Positions 6,338 to 61,117 of a stretch of DNA of 64,000 bases are shown here, piece after piece. Position 1 is the stretch's first letter; each line of letters begins with the position of its first letter. Where the stretch lies: positions 2,818,322-2,882,321 of the forward strand of contig OY735237.1 of assembly GCA_963457665.1 (NCBI GenBank), read 5' to 3'. Made by a program: the position numbers and the translations under genes. Source of the DNA: Thysanoteuthis rhombus (Eukaryota; Mollusca; Cephalopoda; Oegopsida; Thysanoteuthidae). The notes beneath the pieces are model-generated. The model was not told the origin of the DNA. It worked only from the letters and a program-made list of their open reading frames with translations, and made no database searches.

Positions 6338-7489
6338 CTATGGTTTCTCTCCAGTATGTGTTCGCATATGATAGTTCAAACCTGACCAGTGTGAAAAGGA
6401 AGAGCCACACACTTCACAAGAATATGGCTTCTCTCCAGTGTGTGTTCGCATATGAACCACCAAATTTGACTTCTGTGAAAATGAACAGCCACACACTTCG
6501 CAAGAATAGGGCTTCTCTCCAGTGTGTATTCGCATATGACCCACCAAATGTGACTTCTGTGAAAAAGAAGAGCCACATACTTCACAAGTATATGGCTTCT
6601 CTCCAGTGTGTGTTTGCATATGTCTATTCAAACCGGACTTCTGTGCAAAAGAAAATCCACACACTTCACAAGAATATGGCTTCTCCTCTCTGTGTGTCTG
6701 TACATGTGTCAGCAAACTTGACTTACGTGAAAAAGAAGAGCCACATACATCACAAGAATATGGCTTCTCTCCAGTGTGTGTTCGCAAATGAACAACCAAA
6801 TCTGACTCCCGAAAAAAGGAAGAGCTGCATTCTTCACATGAATATGGTTTTTCTCCAGTGTGTGTTCGCATATGAACCACCAAATTTGACTTGTCAGAAA
6901 ATGAAGAACCACACACTTCGCAAGAATATGGCTTCTTCCCAGTGTGTGTTTGCATATGTCTGTTCAAACCGGACTTCTTTGAAAAGGAAAAGCCACACAC
7001 TTCACAAGAATATGGCTTCTCTCCAGTGTGTGTCCGCATATGGATCACCAAATAAGACTCTCGTGAAAAGGTAGAGCCACACACTTCACAAGAATATGGC
7101 TTCTCTCCAGTGTGTGTTCGCATATGAACCACCAAATGTGACTTCCGTGAAAAAGAAGTGCCACACACTTCACAAGAATATGGCTTTTCTCCTGTGTGTG
7201 TTTGCATATGTCTATCCAAAGCTGACTTTTTTGAAAAGGAAAAGCCACATACATCACAAGAATATGGCTTCTCTCCCGTGTGTGTTCGCACATGGACCAC
7301 CAAATATGACTTTCGTGAAAAGGAAGAGCCACACACTTCACAAGAATATGGTTTTTTGCCAGTGTGTGTTTTCACATGTTCATTCAAATGTGATGAATAT
7401 GGCTTCTCTCCAGAGTGTGTTTGCATGTGTGCCAATAAATTTGTATTTTGTGAAAAAGAAGAGCCACACACTTCACAAGAATATGGCAT
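6338..7489 (-). CDS. C2H2 zinc-finger array protein ZNF-A (13 fingers)
   Basis: The 383-residue frame is almost entirely tandem classical C2H2 fingers of the pattern C-x2-C-x12-H-x3-H with TGEKP linkers. It is presumably a nuclear sequence-specific DNA-binding protein. I count 13 complete fingers with core [11 protein letters not shown]. Between fingers 1 and 2 (residues about 30-46) is a remnant that keeps only [10 protein letters not shown] and lacks both cysteines, so an in-frame deletion removed half a finger. Contact positions (-1, 2, 3, 6) vary: Q-S-N-V, K-S-A-R, R-S-H-V, D-S-N-V and others. No KRAB, BTB, SCAN or ZAD domain is present. The start is the first ATG after an in-frame TAG eight codons upstream, so the true N-terminus could come from another exon. 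The last residues are TGEKP followed by TAG, an abrupt end inside what was a longer array. The promoter and first exon are proposed at 17444-17585. Confidence 0.85.
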
Positions 7490-7919
7490 CTCTACAGCGT
7501 AGGTTCTCTAGTGCTTTTTTTTTCTATTATTTGAACTGTAAGACAATTACCATTGACAAGTGCAAAAACATTCCCTTCTCCTCAATTTTTTGAGGTAACA
7601 AAATTAACTGATGAAACATTCAAATCAACCGAAACATGGGAGTTTATGAAATATTTCATGAAAAGAAAATTCTTCATGTTACAGATCAACATCATTTCTT
7701 TCCATTTTGCGATTGCATATAATTGCCTCAAACTTGATTTCAATGAAAAGGACGGGTTTTTTCACTTCCAAAAAATATGGTTGGTTTCCAGTGCTTTTCA
7801 CGAATGTAGCCTGTGACTTCATGAAAAAGATGATCCACAGTTCATTAGGAAATTAATTCTCTCCGGTGAGAGTTTAAGTTTCTTTTCAAAATTGAAATAT
7901 TGTTTTTATTCTTGAACAT
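7490..7919 (-). pseudogene. Splice acceptor and decayed 5' fingers of the ZNF-A exon
   Basis: A pyrimidine-rich tract followed by TTTCAG (minus strand, AG at 7920-7921) precedes an exon start 'atgttcaagaataaaa'. The same start occurs at ZNF-B, ZNF-C and ZNF-D. Between it and the intact array are broken fingers: NCGSSFS followed by a stop, NPSFSLKSSLRQL, and several frameshifts. The region was once coding. It now probably acts as transcribed but untranslated sequence ahead of the internal start at 7489, if the gene is used at all. Confidence 0.65.
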
Positions 7920-16620: not shown

Positions 16621-17443
16621 CCCTATACCACTTGACACCCAAATTTTTTAAATACCCCCCCTCACACACACACACAGAGCTCAAAATCCTTAAAATATCG
16701 AGGTTTTTTCAGCACTCTCTAAACCAGCACATTTTAGGGGCACTTTGAATCATTAAATCTAATAGCAATGCACCGTTTGGGGGAAGGAAGCGCACATAGT
16801 CACAAATAGAAGTATATAAAAAGATGGTTCTATTGCATTTAAATCTTATCTAGTGAGCAATTCAATTTTGAAACAAAACGAGGCCAGACTGTCCGGGGTA
16901 GATATGTCCTGGCCGTTTTAATTGCTAATTTCTGTTTAACTATTTAGGTCTAATTGGCCACAAACATTGAATCATATCATAACAACGAGTTAATCTCTAT
17001 CAGAAGGTCTGAAACAAAAATAAACCACCATTGCATCAGAAATAAAACTTAATTAATTCTCAAGATGCAAAATAATTTATCAGGCAAATTATGTAATGGG
17101 AGACAACTCAATGCAATATTTTGAAAAATCATGTCCACAAATAAAACAATTAAAAACAATAAGAAGAAAATAAATAGAAAATTTACTGAGTGAATTATCG
17201 AATCATTGCCAACAAATTTCATTCAATTATTCAACATGTATCATAATGATGAATAATAAAACTGAATAGATATATAAAATACTGTCCCATAATAGTTGCG
17301 GCATTTCTGTATACAATTCCATTTGTAAATGTGAAGATTATTATGGGACATAGGTACAATCGAATTTGAAGCGGTCCTGAGAAAGACTGACTTTGTTACT
17401 ATTTCTCCAAGTTAATTAATAAAACAAAGCTTCAGATACTTAC
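16621..17443 (-). other. Start of the ZNF-A first intron
   Basis: The part at 17130-17443 is paralogous to 34140-34387 beside ZNF-B. Shared stretches include 'caaatttcattca', 'gaagcggtc' and 'aagttaattaataaaa'. The rest is AT-rich, with a CA-rich tract near 16660. Confidence 0.55.
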
Positions 17444-17585
17444 AAGATGATCGAATGCATAAAATTTGGTGGATTTAGTATAGAAAAATATAAGCTGGAT
17501 TGGAATTTCCTACGATAATCTGTTTGATACTTGTGACGATGTCATTAGCCTCAGAGTTGCAGCCATTTTTAACGGAAGTGGAATT
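17444..17585 (-). promoter_or_regulatory. Proposed promoter and non-coding first exon of ZNF-A
   Basis: On the minus strand this reads: an ETS-type ACTTCCG (17573-17579), an AAAATGGC core like a YY1 site (17560-17569), a split CRE-like TGAC-x3-GTCA (17534-17544) and then 'aacagattatcg'. The first exon ends 'gatcatctt' at a GTAAGTA donor, with intron bases at 17443 and below. The same series occurs at ZNF-B and ZNF-C. The exon has no ATG-led frame of length. It points at the ZNF-A array 9.5 kb downstream on the same strand, with no other candidate gene in between. Transcription start position and factor binding are inferred. Confidence 0.65.
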
Positions 17586-26999: not shown

Positions 27000-28950
27000 T
27001 AAAGACACAACTTTCTTGACTAGAATCAGAACTTGATTCATTGATTGCATTTGCTAACCATGAGGCCACTTCACACTTTCATGAGAAAATAAGGGATGTT
27101 CAAACCTCTATTTTATGAGAAAATAAAGAAAGCAAAGACTTAAATCATAGGTAACATCTTCCATATATTCCTTTCAAATAACCCAAATTGAATATGATTT
27201 AGCAAATCAGAAGTTAATCTCTAAAGTATTTGAGGATAATCAACAATTCCTACAGGTTTAACAGATTGCTCACTGGCCTCCAACCACATTTTTCAGTTCT
27301 GATGAAAATCAATTGTTGAGTACCAGTGAATCTACATTTTCTTTCTTCATGAATTAAAATTAAAAGAACAAAGAAAAGGATTCAACATTAATTTTCAAAA
27401 GGGATGAAGACCTGTTCTTCCCCTCACTGTATTAGTTTTTTTGAGGAATATCTATAACTTTTTGAATCATATTTTCAATATAGAATAGTGTATTACATCA
27501 CAATTCAAATTTCCTTTCTAATAACACACAAAACAAAGGAAACAAAAGAGGAAAAAAAATAAACACAAACATCTAAATATGGACCTAAATGAAAAAAATA
27601 ACTTTGGACAATAAATTTAACTTATTTTGATGGAGTAAATAATGCATTTTCTCATGCTCAACAAGACTAGGTTTTAAAATTCAATTGAGGCAGTTACAAA
27701 ATGACTGAATTATGTTTGGGTGTTCAGATCGCTGTATTAGGTTTGTATGGAGTAGTAATCACACCTTCATTTTTTCACAATGTATAAGTCGTGTATCTGC
27801 TGTGAACTCGGATTTCATATCTTGTTCGAGGAAAGCATGCACCCCACTCTCTATGTGGTTTTTGCATTTCAGTATTTTTCAGAATATCTCCTTCTCACTT
27901 TGATTCTGACCTCCTATCGAGCTTTCCATTTTCATCGTCCATTCCTTCCAAAAGGAAGAGGTGGGGGGCAAACCAACTTTTACAGAATTCTATACGGAGA
28001 AGGATTGGTGGAAAAGGAGGTTGGAAAAAACTACAGATATACTATGGTATATTCAGAAAACTCAATCAGCAGACCAAATTATTTTTTTTTTGTGGCAACC
28101 ACTGATCGCAAACAAGAAGCTGATAAACTTAGGATGGCCCAAGAGATATAATGCGCAAAGCTCAATAAGAGGTCACCAGATAAACACGAAGTCAATTCTC
28201 AGTCTGTTGATCAAGTTCTTTCAGAAGCTTACTCTAAGCTTATTATTCTCAAATATAGTTAGTCATGAAGTCAAAGCAGAGATAAGGAGACATTCCCCAG
28301 AACATAAAAACATGATGTGACATGTATGAGAGCAGTATGCACATGCTCATTAAGACGCGATCACAGACACAAGCAGACAGCCAGGGGCACATAACCAAAA
28401 CATTGAGGAGAATCTAAAAAACAAAGATAAGGAAATTAGAACAAACCACTCAAAAAAAAAAAAAAAAAAAATTTTCAATTCATAAACTTAAAATATCTTC
28501 TCAGCAGCAATTTTTCTGGGAAAGCAAATGTACAAGAACAACATCTTAAATATATCGCTCCACTGAATTTCAATCCAGAGTTTTATTGATATCCAAAATC
28601 AAAAACATTTTAATAAAAGATAGTTCAACAATCTTAGCAAGAAAAACATTCACAGACACAGAGTGTAATCTTTGTAGAAGTAAGTACGCAGAATATTTCA
28701 AAGATATCACCATGAACAGGATTTTAGATCATTTCATCAAAACAGAAAAAGATTTCACAGGATAATAAGTCAAAGTTTTCCAACTTCCTTTAAAATCGTG
28801 CACCATCTAATATATTGATTTTAACCCATCATGAAAATGATATTAATCAAAAGGATCTGCAAAGCTAAATACACTAAAAATACGATAGAGTAAAATATAC
28901 AGATAGATTACAGCATAAGATTATGATTTCTTCTCAAAATCAATGTCTAT
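27000..28950. other. 3' flank of ZNF-B, no gene assigned
   Basis: Plus-strand frames at 27712-28320 overlap in several phases (for example GKNYRYTMVYSENSISRPN and DRKQEADKLRMAQEI). They could be decayed coding DNA, but no family fits. A poly-A run at 28451-28471 follows. The rest is AT-rich. Confidence 0.35.
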
Positions 28951-28959
28951 GGATACAAA

Positions 28960-29587
28960 CAGTGACTTCTGTGAAATATCATAGCCACGAACATCAGAAG
29001 AGCATTCATCTCCTGGGTGTATTCACATTTGTCCTCTCAAATCATATCATATCATTGAAAATGAATGACCAAATTTTTCACTAAACCATGATTTCTTTCC
29101 AGTATGTAGTTTTTTATTTACTGCATCAAAACTGACTTCTCTATAAAAAGTGACAAGATACAGGAGTATGTTTTCCATTTATTGGCTGTCACAATATGTT
29201 GCTAAATTGAATTGTTTGAAGATAAAGATCTCAAAAGATTTGAAAACTTCCAAAAGATTATAGATTTTCTTCAGCGTGTGTCTGCATACGCAGCAATAAA
29301 CTGGATTTTACTGTAAATGAAACGACACAAGATCCACAAAAATATAAATTCCCTTCCATGTGTTTGCAAATAATTTTGTGAAAAATCGAAATCTACATAC
29401 ATTGCAAGTACATGGTTTCTCTGAAGATCATGCTTGCATATGTTGCATTAACTGATGGGAATGGGAGAAAAAAGGTGTGCACACTCCACTAGAGTGGATT
29501 CTTTCCCTGTGTCTTCATGTTGTACGAAAAAAGGATTTCAATAAATAATCAGATCCACAGACTTCACAAGGATGCTACCAATGAATT
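28960..29587 (-). pseudogene. Decayed 3' fingers of ZNF-B
   Basis: Minus-strand sequence keeps the rhythm of the finger array, with corrupted copies of 'cacaagaatatggct' and 'gcatatg' (for example at 29010-29030, 29285-29300, 29420-29450, 29540-29580), but with many indels and stops. It directly follows the intact array. The decayed part is at least seven finger lengths long, so the ancestral array was much larger. Confidence 0.65.
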
Positions 29588-30667
29588 TCATTTCTTTCCC
29601 TTGTGCAATAGCATGTGACGTGTCAAATTTGACACCTGTGCAAAAGAAGAGCCACACACTTCACAAGAATATGGCTTCTCACCAGTGTGTGTTCGCATAT
29701 GTTGGTTCAAATTTGACTTCACTGAAAAAGAAGAGTCACACACTTCGCAAGTATATGGTTTAGCACCCGAGTGTGTTCGCATATGTTGTTTCAAATTCGA
29801 CTTCCCTGAAAAAGAGGACCCACATATACTACAAGGATATGGCTGCTCTCCAGTGTGTGTTCGTTTATGTTTGGTTAAAACTGAATTCACGGTAAAGGAA
29901 GAACCACACACGTCACAGGTATATGGCTTTTCTCCAGTATGTCTTCGCATATGCACCATTAAATGAGAATTACGAGAGAAACATGAGCCACACACTTCAC
30001 AAGAATGAGCTTTCTCTCCAGTGTGTGTTTTCATATGTTGGTTTAAAGCTGTCTTCTGTGAGAATGAAGACCCGCACACTTCACAAGAATATGGCTTCTC
30101 TCCAGTGTGTGTTCGAATATGACGGATCAAATCTGCATTACCTGAAAAGGAAGAGCCACACATCTCACAAGAATATGGCTTATCTCCACTGTGTCTTCGC
30201 ATATGTTGTTTCAAACTGGACTTCTGAGAAAAAGCAGAACCACACACTTCACAAGAATATGGCTTCTCTCCAGTGTGCGTTCGTATATGCACCAACAAAT
30301 GCGACTTTCGTGTAAAGGAAGAATCACACACTTCACAAGAAAATGGTTTCTCTCCAGTGTGTGTTTGCATATGCACAACCAAATGCGACTTTCGTGAAAA
30401 AGAGAAGTCACACACTTCACAAGAATATGGCTTCTCTCCAGTGTGTGTTCGCTTATGTTGGTTCAAATTCCACTTCTGTGAAAAGCAAGTACCACACACT
30501 TCACAAGAAAATGGTTTTTCTCCAGTGTGTGTTTGCATATGCACAACCAAATCTGATTTCTGTGTACAAGAAAATCCACACCGTTTACAAGTATATGGTT
30601 TTCTATCCATTATGGTTTTTTTTTTTTTAAATTCTACTATGAAATATTTTACTTCCACAAGTTTCAA
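29588..30667 (-). CDS. C2H2 zinc-finger array protein ZNF-B (12 fingers)
   Basis: The 359-residue frame holds twelve complete C2H2 fingers with TGEKP-type linkers, preceded by a short basic leader (residues 1-24, with FKKKK). Expected role: nuclear sequence-specific DNA binding. Finger 1 is atypical (CKRCGFSC). Others keep CEVCGSSFS or variants such as CDVCGSSFT and CSICGSSFS. Helix contacts include Q-S-D-V, R-S-H-V, Q-S-S-Q, G-A-D-R and V-S-N-Q, so binding specificity should differ from ZNF-A. Several linkers are degraded (SGDKP, TGEKA, TGEQP, SGAKP). The C-terminus ends KGKK after finger 12. No effector domain is seen. The leader is read from degenerate upstream finger sequence, so the true start may be M at residue 1 or the second Met at residue 20. 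The promoter is proposed at 34388-34555. Confidence 0.85.
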   Translation of the reverse strand: MKLVEVKYFIVEFKKKKTIMDRKPYTCKRCGFSCTQKSDLVVHMQTHTGEKPFSCEVCGTCFSQKWNLNQHKRTHTGEKPYSCEVCDFSFSRKSHLVVHMQTHTGEKPFSCEVCDSSFTRKSHLLVHIRTHTGEKPYSCEVCGSAFSQKSSLKQHMRRHSGDKPYSCEMCGSSFSGNADLIRHIRTHTGEKPYSCEVCGSSFSQKTALNQHMKTHTGEKAHSCEVCGSCFSRNSHLMVHMRRHTGEKPYTCDVCGSSFTVNSVLTKHKRTHTGEQPYPCSICGSSFSGKSNLKQHMRTHSGAKPYTCEVCDSSFSVKSNLNQHMRTHTGEKPYSCEVCGSSFAQVSNLTRHMLLHKGKK

Positions 30668-31032
30668 AACAATTTTCTCTAAAGCAGCTCTTTATGTTTC
30701 ATCTTTTTGAGTTCATGAAGAAAAACTAATGTAACATTCAAATTCAGCAAATTATTCAAGTTGATAGGAAGGAAAATACACACACTGAAGATGAATATTT
30801 CTTTCCAGTTTGTGATATATATTGCCTCAAATTTGACTTCAGTAGAAAGGAAGAGTCACACACTTAACAAGAATATGGCTTGCCACCAGTGCGTCATTTC
30901 AAATGTTGTCCTTGACTTCATCAAGTTCACAAAATCAACACAGTTCGCAAGAGTATGATTTCCCTCCTGTACTAGTTTTCAAGCGTATTTTCAAAATTAC
31001 ACTATAAAACAATTTTATTTCTGCTGGAACAT
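30668..31032 (-). pseudogene. Splice acceptor and decayed 5' fingers of the ZNF-B exon
   Basis: The acceptor TTACAG (AG at 31033-31034) is followed by 'atgttccagcag'. One frame then reads VPAEIKLFYSVILKIRLKTS, then TGGKSYSCELC and TGA, clearly the linker and first half of a finger ended by a stop. Further corrupted finger text follows (CDSSFLLKSNLRQ-like) up to the intact start. It demonstrates loss of the original N-terminal fingers. Confidence 0.7.
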
Positions 31033-31269
31033 CTGTAACAAAAAAAAAATAAATAAAATAAATAAAGAAATGAATAAACTTAATGTACTGTATATTAATT
31101 AAAAAAATTACATTAATCACTTTATTTAAATAGAACTAGTAGAATCCAATTTTCATAATTAAATTTCTTTTATGAACAATGTTCTTCAAAGAATAATTTC
31201 TCCATTAAAACTTCAGTCTTTAGATGAGGTTGACAATTCATTAGTCTTGGGTAATTCGTTGGATCCGTC

Positions 31270-31430
31270 TCCTGTCAAACATTTATATTGCTTTTATTGT
31301 ATCAACATTTGAGACACTTCAAAGATATACCTGAAGAAAAGAGTTAGTTTCATGCCTTACCTAAGTCAAAGATTAATATTGCTTTTATTGTATCAACACT
31401 AATATGGAAGACAGCGAAAAACACTTCTAA
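31270..31430 (-). other. Conserved intron block with ATG micro-exon candidate (ZNF-B)
   Basis: Same two-copy block structure as at ZNF-A. The central segment reads ATGAAACTAACTCTTTTC, then TTCAG|GTATAT. Here the part encoding LSHQ is deleted, and the donor-like GTAT directly follows. It keeps 'taaggc' before the ATG. Confidence 0.5.
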
Positions 31431-32555
31431 AGGCAATATACAAAAATATGTATTTCAATTCATTATAACTCAACATAGCCTTCCTTCCATAATTTTATAC
31501 AGTGGGGGGAAAAAAAACAAAAAAAAAAAATAGCGAAATTAATACTTTGAAAGCAAAAGAAAAAATTTCTTTGAATTATTATTCATATTCCCAAATATGC
31601 ATGAGTTCAACAGTTTCATCAATAAGGCTGTAGAACCAATGAATATACCAAAAAAATTTATAATGAGAATCAACAGTATTTCCATAAGACCAAATATTGA
31701 TTCCCTAATAACTACAAGTACTAGATTGTAATCAAATCACATCCCACCAGAATAAATGTTTTTTATCAGTGGTTGTGTCATGAAACCCAGAATATTTATT
31801 GATGCTTGATTGTTGTGATCCATATAATGATTGAGATATTTGTATTGTATGAATTTAAACCATATCTATGTACACTTCACTATGACTTCACCTACAGAAA
31901 CAGACACTTCAAACATTCATTAAACAATGAGATAAAATAATATATTTTTCATGTTCCTGAAAAGAATGGAAAGCTGCATTCACCAGCAATATTGAAACAA
32001 ATTTCAACAGAAGTGAAGGACTTTTAAATACAAGAGAAGCAATTATAAAAGATTCAAACTTCAAACCACTGTCTTTAACAAAAGTAATTGATATAAGAAA
32101 AACAATGCTTGTAAAACTAGTAATATGAGACCCATCAATAGAATAATAAACAATTATAAAAGATCCAACATCAGTCATCTATGACAAAAATATACTTATT
32201 TTTACCTAATTCTATAATAAAAAATTGTTCATTAGAATTTGAATCATCAAATACGGCATTATAATTGTTTTATTGATAAACTAAAATCTGCCAGAAAAAA
32301 GTCAAATTCTTCATTTTTAAATAATAAAATCTTTTTCTCCATGAAGTTTTGACCAAAAAAAAAAAAAAAATGTGATAAAAAACGTCCTAAATTATGCTTC
32401 TGATGTTCAAAATCAGGCATTTGTTTTTGTGGTGTTGTTACCACTGTATATAAAGATTTGCATCAGAAAAGCTGAAGCGAAACACATCCAGATTTCTACC
32501 AAAATTTAACAAAAGATCAGATTTCAATAAAATTTTCAGTACTTATTCATTCACC
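31431..32555 (-). other. ZNF-B intron, paralogous to the ZNF-A intron
   Basis: The blocks at 31735-32150 match 8700-9110 in order and orientation. No coding frame was recognised. The minus frame 31909-32178 has no family signature. Confidence 0.6.
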
Positions 32556-32559
32556 TCTG

Positions 32560-32730
32560 CCAACCAAGTTGGGAGAGGTATATGTATTCACTCCAGTTTG
32601 TCTATCCACCCAAACAATATCTTCAAGTTTTCTCTATGATTTTCAATGACCTTCTTCTATTATTTAGAAGGGCACGATATGAGCAAGGAAAGAATTGAAT
32701 AATTTTGGGACAGACTCAAAAATTTGTACA
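32560..32730 (+). repeat. SINE-like core repeat, copy 4
   Basis: It begins 'cacctctgccaaccaagtt' and continues with 'ttttcaatgacc', 'gcaaggaaagaattgaata' and 'attttgggacaga'. This is the longest copy and shows the likely 5' part of the unit. Confidence 0.5.
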
Positions 32731-34069
32731 GTTACCACCCTTTGCATCAAGGCTATATTCCAACACAACTCCTTTAATCAGTTAAGAGCTAATTCCTTCG
32801 CTTCCCTTTTAAAAGTTACTTTTTCTTAGAGAGGAAAATCAGATTCAGTCAAAGCAGTTCATACTACATAGGGGGAACATTTTTTCATTATTTTTTTTGT
32901 TATTTTGAGAAATTAAATTACTCATTAACTAATTTCTATCCAATATATTTATACAACAGCTTTCTTTTCCATCAACACAAATATCAATCATGATGTCATT
33001 TGTGAGAATTCCTATGAACCTCACACTAGCACAGCCAGCGAGTGATAAAGAATTGGCAACTCATTACATTGAGAAAGCTATTCAAGAAACTATTTTTGTA
33101 GGAAATTGACCGTATTCAAGTTATTGAAATCCAATGAGCCAATGGTTTTATTAGAGATCTCGGAATAGAAAATTTCAGCCTGAAAAAGGTACGCTTTTTA
33201 TGCCTTGAAGGTAACACGGACCAGCTTCCATTCGGCTGGAGAAGAACCATTAGGGGAACAAGTTACCAAGGAGTCACCGAGTGGGTGCCATACAAATTTA
33301 CTTTGAGTCGTATCTATTGTTACCTAACACAACCTCCCGCATCCCCCAATGGAAGGGATTCATGTACCATCATTGGAAACACAAGCCTCAGCTAGTTTCT
33401 TTACTTCTTAAAGGCCTGTTTTTTGATACTCTGAGCTAGACCTCTATTTCAGCTTTTGCCCCCTAAGTATGTTCAAATACTTTTTGCCAGAATTCCATTT
33501 GTGGAAACCTGCAGCGTCTTACTCATGGAAAAACCTGTCTGGTTTCGCTTTTACCTTTAATATAAAGAACTGTGGAGAGGCTAGATCGCGATAAAGGAGA
33601 ACTCAATTACTATTACAGACAAAGTGAAGATGTTATTTCTCAAACACTTGCAGAGACATTTTGATTAATAATAAAATATTATGGAATTCCCCTTTTTTCT
33701 GGAGATAAGACCTGCTCGTTTTTCTTTTTTTCTTGGTATTGCCTCTGATATTGTCAACTAGGGACAATATTTTAAAGCAGCCCCTATAATTATTTTCTTC
33801 ACAATTTGGAGAAAAAAATTTCCACAAAAGTAATCATACGTTTGAAGAATACTGAATTAAAGACTGTCAAAAATCACTACATGTATATTCTGATTCTCTA
33901 GACTAGAGGTATACGTTGTGGCCCGATATTACCTATCAGTAGATTGTACACTTCAAAGATTAACTAAATTCTATTGTTCACAACTCAATTTATATCACAT
34001 TCTACTACATAATTTTGCTTATAATTATATTCTATTGTTTACATTTTCAAAATTCATTAATTTTTTAAT
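32731..34069. other. ZNF-B first intron, mostly unassigned
   Basis: No gene seen. The part at 33190-33560 looks less AT-rich and may be an old insertion, but no open frame or repeat partner was found. Confidence 0.45.
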
Positions 34070-34075
34070 GAGCCC

Positions 34076-34125
34076 ATGAATTTCTAATTGGTTCGAATTC
34101 GCAACTAAACCCTGGAAGGACCGAG
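34076..34125 (+). repeat. 50-bp dispersed repeat, inverted copy at 46207-46256
   Basis: 'tgaatttctaattggttcga' and 'actaaaccctggaaggac' are present here and as reverse complement near 46207-46256, almost without mismatch. Such high identity is unusual in this old, diverged region. It contains GGTTCGAATTC, which resembles a pol III B box. Confidence 0.6.
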
Positions 34126-34387
34126 AAGAAAAGATGTTTCATGTCCACAAACAATTAAATACAATAAGAATAAAATGAATAGAAAACTCACCAACCGAAT
34201 TATTAAACTATCACCCACAAATTTCATTCAGTTTTTCAATATTGATTATAATGATAAACAATAAAGTGACTGAATAAATGTATAAAATATGAGTTAATTA
34301 CAATCGATTATGAAGCGGTCATAGAAAAGACTCGCTTAGTTACTATTTGTTGAGGTTAATTAATAAAATTAAGCTTTAAATACTTAC

Positions 34388-34555
34388 AAGATGATTGATT
34401 GCATAAACTTTGGTGGTTTGTGTCTTTAAGAAATAGAGGATGGATTAGGATTTACTGATAATCTGCTTGATGCTTCAAACTGTCTTGTTTAGATGACGTC
34501 CATTTTGCAGAATTATAAAAAGAGAGTGACGTCATTAGGGCTACTTCCGAGTAAG
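34388..34555 (-). promoter_or_regulatory. Proposed promoter and non-coding first exon of ZNF-B
   Basis: On the minus strand: CGGAAGT (34543-34549), a perfect CRE TGACGTCA (34527-34534), AAAATGG with an adjoining GACGTCAT (34493-34508), then 'gcagattatcagtaaatcc'. The exon ends 'aatcatctt' at 34388 before GTAAGTA. It aligns base by base with the ZNF-C copy on the other strand and with the ZNF-A copy. It lies 3.4 kb upstream of the ZNF-B acceptor. Confidence 0.7.
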
Positions 34556-34799
34556 GAACAATAAATAAAAAAAACGATTGTAGAAAAAATTGAAAAAGCA
34601 TTTTATTTTCCAGCCAGATTAGAAAAAAAGTAAATTATTTTGATGATTAATTTATTTTAAATAATTATTAACAAAAAAAAAATGATTATGAGGTCAATAT
34701 GGTAGGCGGAGCTATTGGCCGTATATTTTTCTATCTGTACGGGGTTTTAGATGATTTAATACAAACTTGCGATAAAAATAAAGTTAGAACATATTAGGT

Positions 34800-35910
34800 T
34801 AGTTCTACAAATCTCTGTTTGAACCTTTCCGTGCTACTTTTTCACCATTTTCTTCAGCTACGGAGTTTTCGCACAGCTGTTATTTAAGCTTTTTTTGTAT
34901 TTAATTAAGATGTGTTTACATTTAGGATATTATTGGATAAAAAAAAATGATATTAAGTAAAAGTTACAAGTAGGGAGCTCTATTGACTTTTTCACAATAA
35001 TAAACAAAGTGCGTGGGTGGGAATTATAACAGTGAACGAAATCGACGACGAAAAAATCAGCTTTAGGAAAATGCAAATATTTACAATTGACTACGGGTGC
35101 ACAATATGTACAAGAGTTGACTGAAAAATGAAATCTGTGCTGTGAGTCGGAAGTTTTCGTCGTGGAAATGAAATTTGCTGCGATGTGATGAAAGTTTTTA
35201 CAGAAAACATTTATTCAAAATTATATAACAGCCGTTTCTTTATTCCTGTTGGCTTGTTTTTTTATGGACTCGTGGACTAATATTTACACGGGTTTATTAG
35301 CCATCGAAGCTTTTTGATAATAGATAAATAATAATATGAATAAATAAAGACCGAGTTAATAAATGATATCAAAAAATATATGTTGAATTGAGACAATAAT
35401 TTGTTTCAAATTTACAATCAACTCTGTTCGCTATCTGCCTTTGTTTTTGTCTAATCTGTGCACCCGTAGTCGATTTTCTCTCATCGTTATAACTCCCACT
35501 CGCGCACTTCGTTTATTGTTGTCAAAAAGTCAATGGAGCTCCGTAATTGAAAGTTTTTCTTTCTATCAATCAGATATTTAACTCAATAAGATCTTGAACG
35601 TAAAAATAGTATTAATTAAATTTAAAAAAAGCTTAAATAAAAGTTAATTAAGCTTTTTTTATTTAATCAAGATGATTTTACATGTGGGATCTTATTGAAT
35701 AAAACATTTGATGGATAAAAAGAAAAAGTTTCTAACAGGGAATCCCATTGACGTGAAAAAATTGATTAAATAAAAAGTTTAAATAAGAGCCATACAAAAA
35801 CTGATGAATTTTAGTAGCAAGGCAAGAGTTGTGATATTGGATGGTGAAAAAATAGAAATAAAAGGTTCGAACAAAAATTTGTTAAAAAAGAATAAACATG
35901 TACCAACTTA
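34800..35910. repeat. Nested fold-back (inverted repeat) element between two divergent promoters
   Basis: The left arm 34880-35103 ('ttatttaagcttttttt', then 'gagctctattgactttttc', then 'gactacgggtgcaca') pairs with the right arm 35458-35640 read backwards, with about 355 bp between. Directly after, at 35643-35755, another forward part-copy begins with 'attaagctttttttattta', and at 35765-35900 another reversed one. The outermost parts ('ttgaacctttccg' at 34822; 'aaaggttcgaac' at 35860) also pair. So at least four copies of one unit alternate in orientation. No transposase is encoded. A single-arm copy lies at 14390-14560. Confidence 0.7.
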
Positions 35911-36348
35911 TTTTTATGGTAAATTTGAAAAATTGACGGTCAAAAATATCCCCCAACGACTTATCCGTGACAAATAGTTGTCTAAAGCCAATACACCCGG
36001 AATTCGAATAAAATACACGGATGAGCCTTTGAAACGACAACGTATCGAAAAGAGGAAACAATTAAAAATGAATTCAATTTGAATTAAATTACGTAAGGAA
36101 AAAAAGATTGAGTGTTGCCATTACTGTTATAATTGAATTGAAAATTTAGCTATGTTATTGCCAAAATTAACCCAATCGGAAGTATCCATTTCAATGCTAA
36201 CCGTATTGAATCTCATTTTTTACACATTATATAACAAAAAAGACCGTTTTTAGTATAATGCAAAAAATTATTTTTGTTAGATCTCCTCCTATTCTTCCTT
36301 TTCATGATATGGATTTTATGGAAATGGTTCAACACCTTTGATGACGGC
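35911..36348. other. Intergenic between divergent ZNF-B and ZNF-C
   Basis: A plus frame near 35952-36080 reads PQRLIRDK, stop, ANTPGIRIKYTDEPLKRQRI, then EKRKQLKMNS. This may be a scrap of decayed coding DNA. Otherwise it is AT-rich and empty. Confidence 0.35.
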
Positions 36349-36502
36349 TGACGTCACTTCCCCTTTTTTTCCAACTTCCGCAAGATGGACGTAACTTGAA
36401 GCAGACGTACTGAAGCATCTAACAGATTATCGCAGTAAATCTTAATCCATCCAATCTTTTTCAAAAACACAAACCAGCAAGTTTTATGCACCAGATCATC
36501 TT
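36349..36502 (+). promoter_or_regulatory. Proposed promoter and non-coding first exon of ZNF-C
   Basis: TGACGTCA (36349-36356) is followed by CTTCCCC, then ACTTCCG (36374-36380) and CAAGATGGACGTAAC (36381-36395). Then come 'gaagcatctaacagattatc' and an exon ending 'gatcatctt' at 36502 before GTAAGTATTC. The alignment with the ZNF-B copy covers the whole segment in inverted orientation. It is 6 kb upstream of the ZNF-C acceptor at 42531, on the same strand. Confidence 0.7.
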
Positions 36503-36612
36503 GTAAGTATTCAAAGCTTTATTTCAATATGAGGTATAGGTTCAGCTTATGAAGCCAAGCCATCTAACCATATGATGTGCTTTTGGGTACTATCAACGAA
36601 CTTCTGGCGAGG

Positions 36613-36624
36613 CGACACGTGTCG
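36613..36624. promoter_or_regulatory. 12-bp palindrome with E-box
   Basis: CGACACGTGTCG is a perfect palindrome with a central CACGTG E-box, 110 bp into the first intron of ZNF-C. A bHLH site is possible. No equivalent is seen beside ZNF-A or ZNF-B. Confidence 0.4.
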
Positions 36625-39600
36625 ATTAAAACGTCTGTGACTTGGAATCTATCAATTGTGTCTCTATGCTTATCGATAGAAGAAAGATTGCAGTAAATAA
36701 GCTATTTTTCTCCTTTTCACGAAATGAAACCGGAGAAAGATCGGTCGGAAAACTTGTTAACATTTGTGATCCAATTCACTAGCAGAAATAGCGTATCTGA
36801 ATTGTAGCCTGATTTTCACACATATTTTATAAATCCTCCCAAAATATTCTAATGGATCGATTCCAATTAAAAATGTAAGGATGTATACATCTTTGAACGG
36901 ATTTTCCTATGAGAAGTTTATTTTTTAAGAATATCTCCTAGATTTTCTTTCTCCAAATCTAAATCCCCAATTTTGATATTATGAATGAAGTGTCACCCTA
37001 CCATTTTATAGTTATGGAGATGATAGTGCACAGAGACTAAATCTGTGGCAATTTGACTCGATCCTGTGGACTGTCTTTTTTTAAATCTGCCCAGATCAAA
37101 GAAAAAAAAACAAATCGTAAAACAAAAAGATAAAATATTTCCTGTTAAGAAAGTTGTTCATTGATTTTTTTCAATAAAGTACTGAGTGCACTTTTTGTGT
37201 ATTGAAAAAGAAAAAGATATATATCTGCTGGAAACTTGTTCATCATGGTTTTTTATAAATTTTGTCCTCAAATTATTTAATGGTTTTTGGCCTATTGCAA
37301 AGATTTTGAAATTTTATTATCACAAAGAGTGGTATTCTACTTATCGATAAATAAAGTTTTACTAATTCTGAGGTACCTGTTTTTGTTTTTTTTGTTTTTT
37401 CATAAGAATTTTTATTATTTGTGTTTTAATTACAGAAGTTACCATTATCTATACGGTAGCCGGTAACTATCTTTCTTAGCTTTTTACTTTGTTCAACATG
37501 CTATATTGGCCTGTCCAATGTATCCGTATTTACTAGCAGTCAGCGTGCTTTGTGGTCGCAGTAGGTTTAAATTACATTAATCTATATGAGATTAAAGATG
37601 ACCTCTTATTTGATCACCCCACTTGGTAAATTAAATTAGGAAATAATATTTTTTGCATAATCCAGTCAATTAGTCTTCAAATCAATTTTGTTTGATTCAA
37701 ATTTCTCCAATGTAAATTCTATTCTGGAAAGATTTTCAAAGATCAAGATCCTTATCTCTGTTGACACATCAGCCCAACCTTCAAAAATGACAGAATATTA
37801 GTCAGATTACACAACTGCAGTTTGAAGTTGCTTGAAAATCCTGTGAATAGAATATCTCTTTAAATTATCTGCGAATGAAATAAAACAAATATTTGGTACT
37901 GCAGAAACAGAACATCTTGCCTAAATACATTTAATTCAGAGGCTGACAATTACCACTGTCAACAAATAGAGAGAGAGCATCACTCCAGAATTATATCTTT
38001 GACATACAGATTTGCTCCTTGTTATCCATGTCTGGCTAATACAATTCACTTGCTCTGAAACCTCATCAGAACAAATTTACTTTCAATGATGAGTCAGTTT
38101 ATTAGTACTCCCATCACCAGTCAGCAATGCAAATGTTTTGATTTGATTTTTGAAATATTTAAAAAAAAACTCATATATTCAGTTTCTGATTTTGGAAATA
38201 TCTTCCAAAGAATTGGGAGCAAATATTTCTCTTCTCTGACCCCAAAGTCTTAATTTCTGATTTTAAAAAATGGAAATTACATGCTTATCAAGCAAAATAA
38301 TATTTCAATTTATTGTATTTTTCATTTTCCAATTCAGGGAATATTTTGTACATTTCTGGATGTGGTTCCAAATATAGTTTCAACTTATCTAATATCTCTG
38401 CGGAAGTATTTTTATAGAAAAAGTTGGCATTTTAAATAACCTCATGATATTTTATAAAGATTTGATGAAATTAAAAAAAAAAAAGGGTTGATTAACTCAA
38501 AAAATATCCCTGCAGTCTTTTCTTACAAAAACCTTTTTTATAAATGAATTCATGAACTAAAAAGCACTCATAGAGTATATGCCTCTACCATTGCTATTGA
38601 AACTGGAAACTGAATGAAAAATTCATATATAGTCAAAATACAGCGGATGTAACTATAAAATAGCCCATATTCCATCCTTCTACAAAAAGGTTATTGAAAT
38701 TCATGGAGAACATGTAGATGTGTGTCCAGACAGACCAATGGACACAAGACTTTATTAGCAGAAGTAAATGAATGAGTACTCAAAATTTAATTGAAATCCG
38801 ATCATTTGATAAAATCTGGACATGTTCCTCCTAATAGTTTTCACAGTGCTAATAGTTTTCACAGAGACAAAAATCCATTATTCTAAACACTGAAAAGGTT
38901 TTTATACCAGAATTTTCTTCACTCATTCTTCTAATAAATGACATGAGAATAAAATTGGGTTTTTTCATTTTTCAGATAAATATTTGATTTCAAAAATTTA
39001 ATATCATCGTTACTTAACTGAACTGTATAAATATCAACTTTTCACTGTAGAAAAAAAAAAACAATGAAAATATCTTATTCAACTATAGGGATGCTTTTTC
39101 AATTGGTATTTTCTAGAAGTCAAAGTATGGTAACATGCTTGTTAATACCTGATAAGTTATCATGCCTGACAGTCAAGTCAAAAAAGCTGAGTTGGTTTGC
39201 CAGCAATTGTAAAATATAGCATACAAAAAGCTATGATCACAATATGTCACTAGAATAATTTTCCCAAAATATCTTAATCTTATAAATATCTATTCCATCA
39301 AAAAGGGTAAAACTTGGTTATCACAAAAAAGGAGAATAGCTTTCAAAAACATAAATCTGGAACTCTAGTCTCAATGGAAAGAACAGCTAATCTCAAATAC
39401 CATATTTATTTTCTCAAATTTATGGTCACAAGTAATGAAATGAAATATTTTGTATTAATGTTCAGTTGAAATTTAAAAACCTCCACTTGAAGAAAGCCTA
39501 AAAGGGATAAAACCTTTGGAGGACTGTATTGAGTATTGTCTCTTTTGATTGGTTCATGAAAAAAATGTCGGGACTTGTTGGATTCAACTGGGTTTCTGTA

Positions 39601-40250
39601 CGAAAAAATCACTTCTAAAGAACTATAACTAAGAAATTATAAAAATACCTCTGATCAACATTTTTTAATCTTATCAATATATTTGATTATTCAGCATTGT
39701 TACATTCCAATAACAGATTCTCAGTTGAGTAAAGATATTGAAAGAATAGAGCAAGTATTTTTTTTTTAAATGATTGAATCATAAGAATTTGTTTTCTAAA
39801 ATGTGCTGATTTTACTGTTATCTATTCATTATTGCTCAATCCTAAAATTTTTTCTTTATTACGCAAATGATATTGAGCCAAAATGGAATATTATTTAACA
39901 AATTCAAATATTATATTTGACATAAAGATTATCATGCACTAATACTTTACTTTTATTAAAAGATATCAATTTCGTGTTCAATCTTTACATAAACCTACAA
40001 TCAAGAGCAGATGCAATATGACTTTTGCTTGTCTGGTCACATGGTTTCATTATTGAACCTTTTTTTCTCCATGTGCACTGCATTAAAATTTCACTGCACA
40101 GCATAGACCTATGTATGCCAGCTTGAGTGGAAAGGAAATGCCTTCCCATTATAGAAGTCCATCCAGGATAACTAATCAGATGGATTCATCATTACAGAAT
40201 TATCCAGCTTGATGAAGCATAACACACTAGAATTTGGACTAAATAAGCAA
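36625..40250 (+). other. ZNF-C first intron, AT-rich
   Basis: No gene recognised. A small tandem duplication 'ctaatagttttcacag' occurs twice at about 38833-38865. Short frames such as 39406-39612 (minus) have no signature. Confidence 0.5.
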
Positions 40251-40254
40251 AGTC

Positions 40255-40470
40255 TCTTTTTGATGGATCTCATTTAACTAGTTTTGAAATTACTGTTTTG
40301 TATTATTATATTAAGTATGTTTTTGCTAAAGACATCTGATTGAGGTTGGATCTTTGATAATTACTTATTCTCTTATTGGTGAATCTTGTGTAACTAGTTT
40401 TGAAAACACTGATTTCATTATATCAAGTATGTTTTTTGTTGAAGACAACTGATTGAAGTTGGATTTCCCA
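40255..40470 (+). repeat. Two tandem copies of about 115 bp
   Basis: 'taactagttttgaaa', 'caagtatgtttttgctaaag' and 'gattgaggttggat' in the first copy (40275-40352) return at about 40390-40470 with few changes. Confidence 0.65.
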
Positions 40471-40768
40471 TTTCTCTTTCTTGTGTCTGAAAGTTCCTGT
40501 AAACGTTTCTGTTTAATTATTGCTGGCAAGAATGGTTTCCCATTTTATTCCACAACAAGAAAACAAAATTATTTGTTACTTTATCTCTATGATTAACAAA
40601 TGTTTGAAGTGTTTGTGTCTGTAGGCAGAGTCATAAGAGCGTATTAGGGCTTCAACGATTAATCAACAAAAATCAATAACAAAATTAGTCAACTATGAAT
40701 TTCATTGTTTTCTATTTGTTGATGATGTCATTGCATGTTTCTATTGCTGTGGTGCTGAACTTGTTAAT

Positions 40769-41230
40769 GTGAAGATGAAATTACTTTATCATCCATTTTA
40801 TCCCCCTCTCATACTCCTGTTTTTCTCTGCTTTATTTCATATAACCAGCCGTCAGCTGGAACACCTTAAATCCCATCTTCCCTTCGTTTTCTCCGTTCTT
40901 GTTTTGTTTTTTTTTAAATCAATCCTTGAAATGAATAAAGTTGAAAGAAAGAGTAGGAAAAAAGTAAGACTAAGAACTAAGATGACTACTTCCTCCCTCC
41001 ACCAATACTCCTTCACTCTGTGTTGTAAGGTTATCTCTCTATCACTCCAGCTCCACTGTACTTTATCTTTAACTCGGTCATCAATAACTAGCCCCAATCG
41101 GATGTTTACACCTTCGATCTTGCCAAGCCAATGTGGTCTATCAAATGTTGGCAGAACACCAAATTCACAAAAAATTACATGCTTTTTTAGCACCCTTTCT
41201 TTCAACATTTCAACTTTAATTTTAAACTGA
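40769..41230. other. Segment open on both strands, no recognised product
   Basis: The plus strand is open for 153 codons and the minus strand for 118 codons (40852-41208). The minus reading (FGVLPTFDRPHWLGKIEGVN, then IRLGLVIDDRVKDKVQW) has a mixed, protein-like composition, while the plus reading is Ser/Leu/Phe-rich. The stretch is pyrimidine-rich on the plus strand, which by itself lowers stop codons on both strands. I favour a decayed insertion on the minus strand, but no family is recognised. Confidence 0.3.
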
Positions 41231-42104
41231 GAGGTAATTTATTTTCTTGAAAATCAGAAGGCTATGAAATAAGCAAGGGTCCAAAATAAGGATTTTCGGT
41301 TGTAAAAAAAAACTGAAATTTTTTTCAGTTTACCTTTAAGTCTTTGTTGATTTTAAGAGTAACTGTAGAGTTTGAAGAGTACTTGATTTTTCAATTTAAA
41401 GTGCACCTTGGTGCTTTTTTGTTAATAAGATTTCCAATTCCTCGGGTTTGTTTGTTTTTTTTTACTAAAATATTCCTTTGTACTTTGCCTGTCCTTGGTT
41501 TTAAATGAATCAATGACTGACAAATCAAGTGAAATAATCCATAACTAATTGAAAATCAAAATATCTGTTAATTGCAGCTTTGGAGAATATAAGTATGGCT
41601 CAAATTTGTTCAGTGTAAACATCTCAATCTCTATACAAATAGTTGTAAATATCAGTACAGGTATGCCTTAAATATCACAGTCAATTCATTCAAAAATCTT
41701 ACGTGTTGTTCAAAACTTCATGATTTTTACTTTAATCATACTGAATTGAAACCATACTATTCAAGGTACTGCTGTGTATTTATGTACATAGAGACATACA
41801 GAAAGATACAGACAACAGAGAAAGAAAGGTGGAAGAGATATATACGATAGATCACACTATAAGAGAATCTAGTATTTGAGGTTATTGGGAAATCAACATA
41901 TTGTCTTTGTCCATTTTTCAAAATTTTGTGTAATAATTGGAAAGTCAGGTGTGGTGCTCCAGTATAATTGATAAGACTATCATTTATTTACAAAATGAAT
42001 GATAATTTAGTTCTACATTTGGTAGGAAACTGATGCTGTTGGCTTTTGATTTTTTAGTTTTCCGTATAGAAGTTCAAGAGTTGAAAGAAGTTGAAATACA
42101 ATTT
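41231..42104 (+). other. ZNF-C intron, AT-rich
   Basis: Nothing assignable; short simple tracts only. Confidence 0.5.
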
Positions 42105-42345
42105 TAACCTAATCGCTGTACTGTCTTTGAAAGTATCTTTTGCTGTCATATCAATGTAAATACAATGAAAGCAATATATATTTTTGGTTCAGGATAAGCA
42201 TGAAACCAACTCTTTTCTTAGCTCATCAGGTAAAGGTAAGCTTTCTTGCTGTATTATCTCTAAAAGTGTCTTTTGCTATCTGTTATATTGATATGAATAC
42301 AGTAAAAGCAGTAACACCTTTGACAGAAGTCAGATCCAGGGATTT
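42105..42345 (+). other. Conserved intron block with ATG micro-exon candidate (ZNF-C)
   Basis: The two 50-bp copies (42116-42170 and 42250-42315) flank an acceptor-like TTCAG (AG at 42191-42192). A segment encoding MKPTLFLAHQ follows from the ATG at 42200 and ends CAG|GTAAAG at 42229. A second donor GTAAGC lies six bases on. This is the best-bounded of the three copies. Confidence 0.5.
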
Positions 42346-42530
42346 ACCTAAGACTAATCAATTTTCCACTATAGTTACATCACAGATATTAATTATTGAA
42401 GGACAATATTGTCTCTATCAAAAAGGAAATTCATTTATAAAATTTAGATTCTGCTGAGCCTAATCAAATATAGAGTGAATCGATCTGATTTATTTATTTA
42501 ATTTTTAAATCATATTCTTTCTTTTTACAG

Positions 42531-43031
42531 ATGTTCCGACTGGAATAAAATTTTAAAAAGAACTTTGAAACCTGTCAGTGGAGAGCAATCCTATTCTTCT
42601 GAATTGTATGGGTCTTCCTTCTCATGAAGTCAATGGCTACAGGCATGAACTTGCATTGGAGACGAACCGTATTTTTGTGCGGGTATCATCCTTTTTACAG
42701 ACATGAAGTTTGTTGCAGTATTTGCAATCAATAATTGTAGAAAATTATATTCTTTTATAGCACGGATATCCCTGTGCAGAAAATATTTTTGGGAAACTTC
42801 AAAATTTGGTGAATTAGATTGTTTCATTGATTTTGAGTAAACTATAGGAAAATGCCAAAGAAAATATATTGTGGAACTTGCAGGTGTGAATTGTCTAGTA
42901 GATCCAATTTGAAAGAAACACGAGAAAACCAAGGATAAAAACTCGAGAGTGTGGCTATTGAACAGAAATATCAAATTTGGTTATGCATATGCAAACATAT
43001 TCTTGCTGGCTCTTTTTCAATTTGAACAAAC
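42531..43031 (+). pseudogene. Splice acceptor and decayed 5' fingers of the ZNF-C exon
   Basis: CTTTTTACAG precedes 'atgttccgactggaataaaa'. One frame then reads LKPVSGEQSYSSELYGSSFS followed by TGA: a finger in which both cysteines have become serine and tyrosine. More broken finger text continues to 43031. At 43032 an indel in the linker sets the reading frame of the intact array. Confidence 0.7.
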
Positions 43032-44063
43032 ATGCAGAAGCCCACTGGAGGCAGACCATATTGTGAAGTGTGTGGCTCGTCTTTTTCACATAGGTCATAT
43101 TTGATTCGACATATGCGAACACACACTGGAGAAAAGCCATATTCTTGTGAAGTGTGCGGCTCTTCCTTTTCAGAGAAGTCATCTTTGAAAAAACATATGC
43201 GAACGCACACTGGTGAGAAACCATATTCTTGTGAAGTATGTGATGCTTCCTTTTCAGTCAAGTCGAATTTGAACAAACATATGCGAACACACACTGGAGA
43301 GAAACAACATTCTTGTGAAGTGTGTGGCTCTTCTTTTTCACGAAAGGAACACTTATTGCTACATATGCGAACACACACTGGAGAGAAACCATATTCTTGT
43401 GAAGTGTGTGGCTCTTCCTTTTCAGTCAAATCAAATTTGAACTATCATATGCGAATACACACAGGAGAAAAGCCATATTCTTGTGAAGTGTGTGGCTTTT
43501 CCTTTTCAGCAAATTCAGATTTGATCAAGCATATGCGAACACACACTGGAGAAAAGCCAAATTTTTGTGAAGTGTGTGGCTCTTCTTTTTCTGTCAAGTC
43601 AAATTTGAATAAACATATGCGAACACACACTGGAGAAAAGCCATATTCTTGTGATGTGTGTGGCTTTTCCTTTTCAGAGAAGTCAACTTTAAAAAAACAT
43701 ATGCGAACACACACTGGAGAGAAACCATATTCTTGTGAAGTATGTGGTGCTTCTTTTTCACGAAAGGAGCATTTGTTACTGCATATGCGAACACATACTG
43801 GAGAGAAGCCATATTCTTGTGATGTGTGTGGGTCTTCCTACTCGGACAAGTCATATTTGAAACAACATATGCGAACACACACAGGTGAGAAACCATATTC
43901 TTGTGAAGTGTGTGGCTCCTCTTTTTCACGAAAGGAACATTTGTTGGTACATATGCGAACACACACTGGAGAGAAGCCATATTCTTGTGAGATGTGTTAT
44001 TTGTCATTTGCACAGAAGTCAAATTTAATGCAACATCTACGAACACATATTGTAAAGAATTAG
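43032..44063 (+). CDS. C2H2 zinc-finger array protein ZNF-C (12 fingers)
   Basis: The 343-residue frame contains twelve C2H2 fingers separated by TGEKP linkers, with no other domain. Expected role: nuclear DNA-binding protein. Finger 1 lacks one residue before the first cysteine (RPYCEVC). The rest are regular 28-residue units. Helices fall into few classes: E-K-S-S-L-K-K (fingers 2 and 8, the latter with T), V-K-S-N-L-N (3, 5, 7), R-K-E-H-L-L (4, 9, 11), plus A-N-S-D and D-K-S-Y. The order 2-3-4 and 8-9 suggests internal duplication of blocks. The last finger ([10 protein letters not shown]) is followed by HIVKN and a stop. The DNA of the repeats is nearly identical even at synonymous sites. 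It is divergent to ZNF-B, with the proposed start at 36349-36502. Confidence 0.87.
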
Positions 44064-48872: not shown

Positions 48873-49004
48873 CTATGTTTACTAATCATTGTAAATAGAG
48901 AAGGATCAGTAATCATAACCCAAACAGCCTTTTAAACTGATTTTGTTGATAAAAACGACAATAATAATGATCACTACTCGATTGACTATGTAGCATATGC
49001 TACT

Positions 49005-60122: not shown

Positions 60123-61007
60123 TCAAATCTTGTGCTGAGAAATCATACAGATACACATATGTCGCTTCAGATTTGATTTATCAGCAAAGGGAGATCCACA
60201 CACTTCACAAGAATATGGCTTCTCTCCAGTATGTATTCGCATATGAGATTTCAAACCTATTTTCTGTGAAAATGAAGTACCACACACTTCACAAGCATAT
60301 GGCTTCTCTCCAGTGTGAGTTCGCATGTGACAGTTTAAAACTGACTTCTGTGAAAATGAAGAGCCACACACCTTACAAGAATATGGCTTTTCTCCAGTGT
60401 GGGTTCGCATATGGCAGTTTAAAACTGACTTCAGTGCAAAGGAAGATCCACACACTTCACAAGAATATGGTTTCTCTCCAGTGTGTATTCGCATATGAGA
60501 TTTCAAACCTATTTTCTGTGAAAATGAATAGCCACACACTTCACAAGAATATGGTTTCTCTCCAGTGTGCGTTCGCATATGACAGTTTAAAACTGACTTG
60601 CGGGAATAGGAAGAGCCACACACTTTGCAAGAATGTGACTTCTCTCCAGTATGTGTTCGCACATGAACAACCAAATGTGACTTCTGTGAAAAGGAAGATC
60701 CGCACACTTCACAAGTATATGGCTTCTCCCCAGTGTGTGTTCGCATATGATCATTCAAACTTGTTTTCTGAGTGAATGAAGAGCCACACACTTCACAAGA
60801 ATATGGCTTCTCTCCAGTGTGTATTCGCATATGAGCAATCAGACTTGTTTTCTGTGAAAATGAAGAATCACAAACTTTACAGGAATATGGCTTATCTCCA
60901 TTGTGTGTTCGCATATGTTGGTACAAATTGCACTTCTGTGAAAATGAAGAACCACAAGTTTCACAAGAAAATGGCTTCCCTCCAGCGTGTGTTTGCATAT
61001 GGGTCAT
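60123..61007 (-). CDS. C2H2 zinc-finger array protein ZNF-D (9 full fingers plus two partial)
   Basis: The 294-residue frame starts inside a broken finger (MTHMQTHAGGKP keeps only the two histidines). It continues with nine complete C2H2 fingers and TGEKP-type linkers. The tenth finger (CEVCGSPFADKSNLKRH) has its last histidine replaced by cysteine (HMCIC), so it would be C2HC if it folds. The protein then ends MISQHKI. Fingers 5-6 and 8-9 repeat the same helix pair (K-S-V-L-N-C then K-I-G-L-K-S), evidence of a two-finger block duplication. No effector domain is seen. Expected role: nuclear DNA binding. Unlike the other three, the sequence after the stop shows no further fingers. Its promoter must lie right of the window. 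Confidence 0.85.
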   Translation of the reverse strand: MTHMQTHAGGKPFSCETCGSSFSQKCNLYQHMRTHNGDKPYSCKVCDSSFSQKTSLIAHMRIHTGEKPYSCEVCGSSFTQKTSLNDHMRTHTGEKPYTCEVCGSSFSQKSHLVVHVRTHTGEKSHSCKVCGSSYSRKSVLNCHMRTHTGEKPYSCEVCGYSFSQKIGLKSHMRIHTGEKPYSCEVCGSSFALKSVLNCHMRTHTGEKPYSCKVCGSSFSQKSVLNCHMRTHTGEKPYACEVCGTSFSQKIGLKSHMRIHTGEKPYSCEVCGSPFADKSNLKRHMCICMISQHKI

Positions 61008-61117
61008 TCAAATGGTACTTCTGAGAATAGGAAGTGCGCACACTTCACAAGGATATGTGATATATCTCCAGTGTGTGCACGCATACAAACCACCAATTGT
61101 GAACTTTGTTCAAATAT
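61008..61117 (-). pseudogene. Splice acceptor and decayed 5' fingers of the ZNF-D exon
   Basis: The acceptor 'ttttttcacag' (AG at 61118-61119) is preceded by a long T run on the minus strand. The frame then reads SSQLVVCMRAHTG, followed by a frame change and ILVKCAHFLFSE, then a stop. The poly-A tract on the plus strand at 61122-61140 is this pyrimidine tract. Confidence 0.65.

Follow-up and report, generated by a model that had tools for sequence, protein, structure and literature searches.

Matching start regions of two head-to-head zinc-finger genes of Thysanoteuthis rhombus probably reflect membership in a large paralogue family

We analyzed a 64-kb stretch of the Thysanoteuthis rhombus genome (hereafter the window; contig C42, positions 2818322-2882321, in a genome of 2.73 Gb and 514 contigs) that carries four zinc-finger genes, A, B and D on the minus strand and C on the plus strand, with B and C standing head to head. 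The subject of this work is the pair of start regions from which B and C diverge, which a preliminary description had read as mirror-image promoters. The start module of gene B extends over 34366..34534 on the minus strand and comprises a cyclic AMP response element (CRE) at 34527-34534, the string CAAAATGGACGT at 34496-34507 and an exon 1 that ends at 34388 with the splice donor GTAAGTAT. The module of gene C (36349..36524, plus strand) contains a CRE at 36349-36356, the ETS-type string ACTTCCG at 36374-36380, CAAGATGGACGT at 36381-36392 and an exon 1 that ends at 36502 with the same donor. At a distance of 17 kb, gene A carries this exon as well (17417-17532, minus strand): its module (17417..17579) shows an ETS-type site at 17573-17579, the core AAAATGGC and an exon 1 end at 17444, without a CRE.

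Pairwise alignment confirms that the start regions of the head-to-head genes are homologous, as had been proposed: 34366-34534 (minus) and 36349-36524 (plus) form an inverted alignment in which 143 of 180 columns are identical (79%, E 9e-28), and its score of 75 compares with a maximum of 14 when B was subjected to 500 single-base shuffles. Scanning of the whole window with low-complexity masking gave only two inverted pairs within 3 kb that reached E<=1e-10, namely the B/C modules and a repeat situated between the two genes. The palindromic CRE TGACGTCA lies at 34527 and 36349, that is, 1822 bp apart, in keeping with the separation of about 1.8 kb given before, and both modules hold the core CAA(A/G)ATGGACGT and the exon end CATCTT followed directly by the donor GTAAGTAT. 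Of the promoter elements listed earlier as common to B and C, the CRE, the core and the exon end thus stand, and the ETS-type site does not, as it is out of register: on the sense strand of gene C, ACTTCCG (36374) sits between the CRE and ATGGACG, whereas gene B reads TTCTG at the aligned position, and its own ACTTCCG (34543, plus strand) lies upstream of its CRE and appears as CGGAAGT in gene orientation. For this reason, we rejected ETS as an aligned site of the pair. The copy at A and the one assigned to D have CTTCCG and lack the CRE, so that even within this small set the three elements are not uniform.

Downstream of the modules, consensus splicing would join exon 1 to exon 2 at 7919 (A), 31032 (B), 42531 (C) and 61117 (D), an acceptor-like site preceding each position; the donor (34388, 36502) and acceptor coordinates previously assigned to B and C agree with the sequence, and ATGTTCC directly follows both of their acceptor-like sites. 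Exon 2 of gene A (6338..7919, minus strand) encodes a 13-finger C2H2 array. In gene B (29588..31032, minus strand) about 420 nt precede a 12-finger array with an ATG near 30610, and in gene C (42531..44063, plus strand) about 500 nt precede a 12-finger array with an ATG near 43032. Exon 2 of gene D (60123..61117, minus strand) encodes nine fingers, and its leader matches those of the others at 46-53% only. Pfam zf-C2H2 and zf-H2C2_2 are matched in all four genes. These finger arrays in adjoining genes, together with the exon-1 copies at A, B and C and the matching exon-2 openings, are those of a tandem C2H2 cluster with a common gene structure and 5' end. From position and strand, the first exon of gene D would be the copy at C42:2884820 (minus strand), about 2.5 kb beyond the end of the window; all four arrays that are open over at least 100 residues in the window would therefore have a likely module.

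The module is found far beyond this cluster. Used as a query against the window's own genome, the gene C module gave 41 matches including C itself (40 of 124 first-look candidates scored), and gene B ranked 20th among the 40 matches other than C. The 16-base exon-end/donor string ATCATCTTGTAAGTAT has 77 exact copies in the genome; its reversal, used as control, has 3. When a profile was run over the fetched copies, it located 89 module places, 86 of them with a recognized donor and 81 of these above 60 bits; among the three places without a donor by the pattern used, two are cut by locus edges and one is a variant. A search with the N-terminal region and first fingers of one member returned 13,233 first-look candidates and 194 scored matches, which identifies the finger family as very large. 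When the 149 listed among these 194 matches were collapsed to 125 places, 17 of the 125 listed places lay 3.0-10.3 kb downstream of a module on the same strand, against 8 in the same-strand upstream control and none in the opposite-strand downstream control (0/125). At C42:496968, 508101 and 519531, three modules with equal score and equal motif positions recur at a spacing of about 11 kb, which suggests a recent tandem triplication.

Within this family, B and C are not closest relatives. Their modules are 0.765 identical, compared with a mean of 0.779 (standard deviation 0.049) over 465 pairs from contig C42, of which 62% are at least as alike; in a tree of the 81 copies above 60 bits, built on about 155 bases, when the other 80 are ranked by nearness, C comes 28th for B and B comes 12th for C. 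Past the donor, intron 1 of gene B still matches that of A at 79% and shows no match to C, and intron 1 of gene C stops matching A and B after about 25 nt. Further intron pieces of B and C match in broadly the same order, some of which may be repeats. Moreover, the homology between B and C is also seen in exon 2 and in the finger arrays, which are 68% identical (63-72% over all 15 pairs compared).

The remaining symmetry of the locus resides in the sequence between the genes. Here, we delimited a palindromic, foldback-like repeat at about 34731..35976 (edges approximate) with inner inverted arms at 34877-35050 and 35465-35643 and outer arms at 34762-34848 and 35841-35927. Matches in the genome number 58 for the right arm with its neighboring sequence (35465-35760) and 44 for the segment enclosed by the inner arms (35051-35464); both sets are spread over many contigs, include those of the window itself and contain some copies that were counted more than once. 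Inverted arms combined with many dispersed copies are the features of a foldback or miniature inverted-repeat transposable element (MITE), and since 5 of the 6 other loci compared also match an outer arm, the entire interval can be regarded as one dispersed palindromic repeat. As the central repeats belong to this element, we rejected the idea that the central palindrome forms one unit with the B and C modules. Two other start modules likewise have pieces of this repeat (C42:2885785-2886326 and C47:99878-100204) upstream of them, no more than about 1 kb away; its presence near several modules could reflect either an insertion preference or inheritance with the duplicated genes.

Turning to the promoter itself, we compared motifs in 33 C42-like copies, a set chosen by contig (C42, C32, C5 and one copy from C47) after removal of two near-identical tandem copies, 51 of the 86 being left out. 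In this set the CRE is exact in 14 copies (and present with one mismatch in 4 more), 13 copies contain CTTCCG and 18 contain ATGGACG, the corresponding shuffle means being 0.005, 0.085 and 0.015; the counts are 14, 16 and 22 among all 86 copies and 8, 7 and 13 among the 22 copies on C42 that were reached by the donor string. The CRE-, ETS- and YY1-type motifs thus keep fixed positions across paralogues. In 5 of the 33 copies, GGYNACACD takes the place of the CRE, and it never occurs alongside an exact one. Because shared descent alone could account for the presence of motifs, we compared site rates: The CRE evolves at 0.55 and its two flanks at 1.28 and 1.04, the ETS site at 0.77 and the ATGG core at 0.71, with 0.53 in the exon, 0.75 in the intron and 2.09 far upstream. 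When overlapping windows, subject to biased sampling, are ranked from the lowest rate, the CRE comes 4th of 72, the ATGG core 7th of 69 and the ETS site 19th of 73. On the downstream side, homology persists beyond +200, within intron 1, and on the upstream side it fades out between about -170 and -250. These rates fit a selected core promoter without proving one, and as the CRE columns are among the slower-evolving promoter columns, shared CRE/ETS/YY1-like control at the level of a subfamily appears plausible. Binding of CREB/ATF, ETS and YY1-like factors to the module would follow from consensus sites, and the co-regulation earlier suggested for B and C, if it holds, would concern a subfamily rather than this pair.

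The first exon is probably non-coding, judging from its frames. An ATG at -17 from the donor is kept in 25 of the 33 C42-like copies and in 29 of all 86, and its frame is open from -89 in 23 of the 33; third positions of this frame evolve somewhat faster than the others (0.632 versus 0.476), but a permutation test (0.19) found no significance in this difference. The frame comprises only 15-37 residues in A, B and C and stops before the fingers, so that it can at most represent a short upstream frame.

Taken together, we consider it very probable that the start regions of B and C match as members of a family that has kept its start region, and not by virtue of a special local mirroring. The homology, the numerous copies, the arrays and the further copies of the repeat are all directly observed. 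According to this explanation, B and C would be two paralogues of a large C2H2 zinc-finger family that is arranged mostly as a tandem array, each with a start region that would have come down to it within its subfamily: a short promoter in which often a CRE, then CTTCCG and then AA(A/G)ATGG follow one another within about 40 bp, and a first exon of about 120 nt that is probably non-coding and would be spliced to an exon with a leader and the finger array. Transcription would start near the ATGG core, and the shared promoter would give related expression. As the array contains inversions, B and C would have come to lie head to head, and insertion of the palindromic dispersed repeat into the 1.8-kb gap would have produced the remaining symmetry. 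A paralogous array, in preference to a local copy of promoter and exon, is indicated because the module is found at A, apparently at D and at 86 fetched places in the genome, because B and C are not closest relatives and because the start of intron 1 in B matches A and not C.

How far the genes themselves are intact bears on a competing explanation. Two relatives with strong modules have open frames, a common N-terminal start and 8 and 12 fingers; by eye, this start is gone in A, B and C, so that some decay has occurred, and the longest frames of these three genes begin at an ATG immediately preceding the first open finger. In the leader of gene C (about 500 nt), fingers that look decayed and an interrupted N-terminal start can be made out by eye. 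Between 42531 and 43020, finger-like sequence can be read by eye in frame with an exon-1 ATG; such a leader suggests that fingers were lost from the N-terminal side. The missing N-terminal starts and the stops that are visible by eye between the N-terminal region and the fingers of gene C would be expected if the genes were decaying pseudogenes and their promoters relics; however, the open frame persists through arrays of 12-13 fingers, each directly preceded by an ATG, and donors, acceptor-like sites and, in B and C, the CREs remain, so we regard this alternative as rather unlikely, though one to be taken seriously.

A true bidirectional promoter, in which the 1.8-kb gap would act as one unit driving B and C together, would make sense of the head-to-head modules with their matching CRE and ATGG elements. 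Starts that share such a promoter lie under about 1 kb apart, a distance exceeded by the two CREs of the window; a repeat of about 1.25 kb lies between them, the spacing minus the repeat being, by arithmetic, roughly 0.6 kb, and the ETS element is out of register between the two genes. Furthermore, divergent arrangements are a minority: among 51 neighboring pairs of detected modules less than 60 kb apart, 34 are tandem, 10 divergent and 7 convergent, and 4 divergent pairs are closer than B and C (344 to 1436 bp between profile ends versus 2158). We therefore judge joint driving of B and C from one unit to be distinctly improbable. At C5:9299199-9299509, two exon-1 modules stand head to head with donors 300 bp apart, which would be within the range of a bidirectional promoter; they form a palindrome of about 370 bp (74% over 380 alignment columns) with facing CGGAAG/CTTCCG ETS-type sites 51 bp apart. 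With this tighter mirror, the C5 pair is the better candidate for a shared promoter.

Least probable is the inverted duplication suggested in the preliminary description, whereby promoter and exon 1 would have been copied in inverted orientation next to the original; such an event would give both the pair and a palindromic intergenic region. The modules and two further repeat pairs are indeed nested symmetrically, but the central repeats are part of a dispersed element, the module has many other copies, and B and C are slightly less alike than the average C42 pair. Their sequence likeness also extends into exon 2 and the arrays but is lost 25 nt into intron 1, at a point where B and A continue to match. 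For these reasons, we rejected such a partial copy.

Several points weigh against membership in a shared family as the full account. An old inverted duplication of B and C followed by exchange among copies would be compatible with a tree of about 155 bases. Exon 1, the acceptors and the start sites are predictions. Of the 86 copies, five score weakly (20-50 bits), and as copies were fetched with the C module or the exact donor string, the counts and the conservation of the donor lean toward C-like members. Among the listed zinc-finger places, the same-strand upstream control yields 8 of 125, and for 108 of 125 no module was detected on the same strand in the 15 kb upstream; because of these two numbers, the module is either the marker of a subfamily at best, or many divergent copies were missed. 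A bolder proposal is that the subfamily keeps a common CRE/ETS/YY1-like promoter and a non-coding exon 1 under selection, by which dozens of paralogues could be switched together, the copies with GGYNACACD for the CRE providing a second regulatory class per cluster; we offer this as speculation that may well prove wrong.

Elsewhere in the window, a tandem repeat at 48936-49466 has an open frame readable as DPADSNIGPKISR-like units, and a further open frame at 19042-19485 resembles the end of a reverse transcriptase of the non-LTR (long terminal repeat) type. A scan of 28000-45000 against Rfam gave nothing at gathering thresholds, and a search for tRNAs with ARAGORN found none.

The mirror symmetry of B and C thus appears to stem from two ordinary causes, homology within the family and a dispersed palindromic repeat, and this account corrects a tempting story of mirrored promoters. 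If the constraint on the promoter is real, the module would offer a handle, from sequence alone, by which start sites could be located and common control tested for part of a very large zinc-finger family. The literature searches made retrieved no paper on this zinc-finger module family. Among known systems, Surf-1 and Surf-2 reportedly share a head-to-head bidirectional promoter for which ETS and YY1 binding are named; B and C are likewise head to head, but 1.8 kb apart and with binding proposed from consensus sites only. In mammalian genes, the CRE TGACGTCA and ETS sites are localized in proximal, CpG-type promoters (PMC2267717), and the window's module shares this CRE and ETS-type sites with them. 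A paper on cephalopod C2H2 genes reports very large lineage-specific expansions, as seen here, and duplicates that often fall into different expression modules, which calls for caution against simple co-regulation; the words promoter, exon and UTR (untranslated region) do not occur in its main text (PMC12513265). A shared first exon in an expanded zinc-finger family, as here, is already on record in fish: Work on the FiNZ family describes it together with a distinct promoter architecture for part of the family (PMC10547256). The target there is the translation start, and promoters of the sharp-peak class have a TATA box (PMC10547256), whereas the modules described here have an exon 1 of non-coding appearance and CRE-, ETS- and YY1-like motifs; the likeness is one by description.
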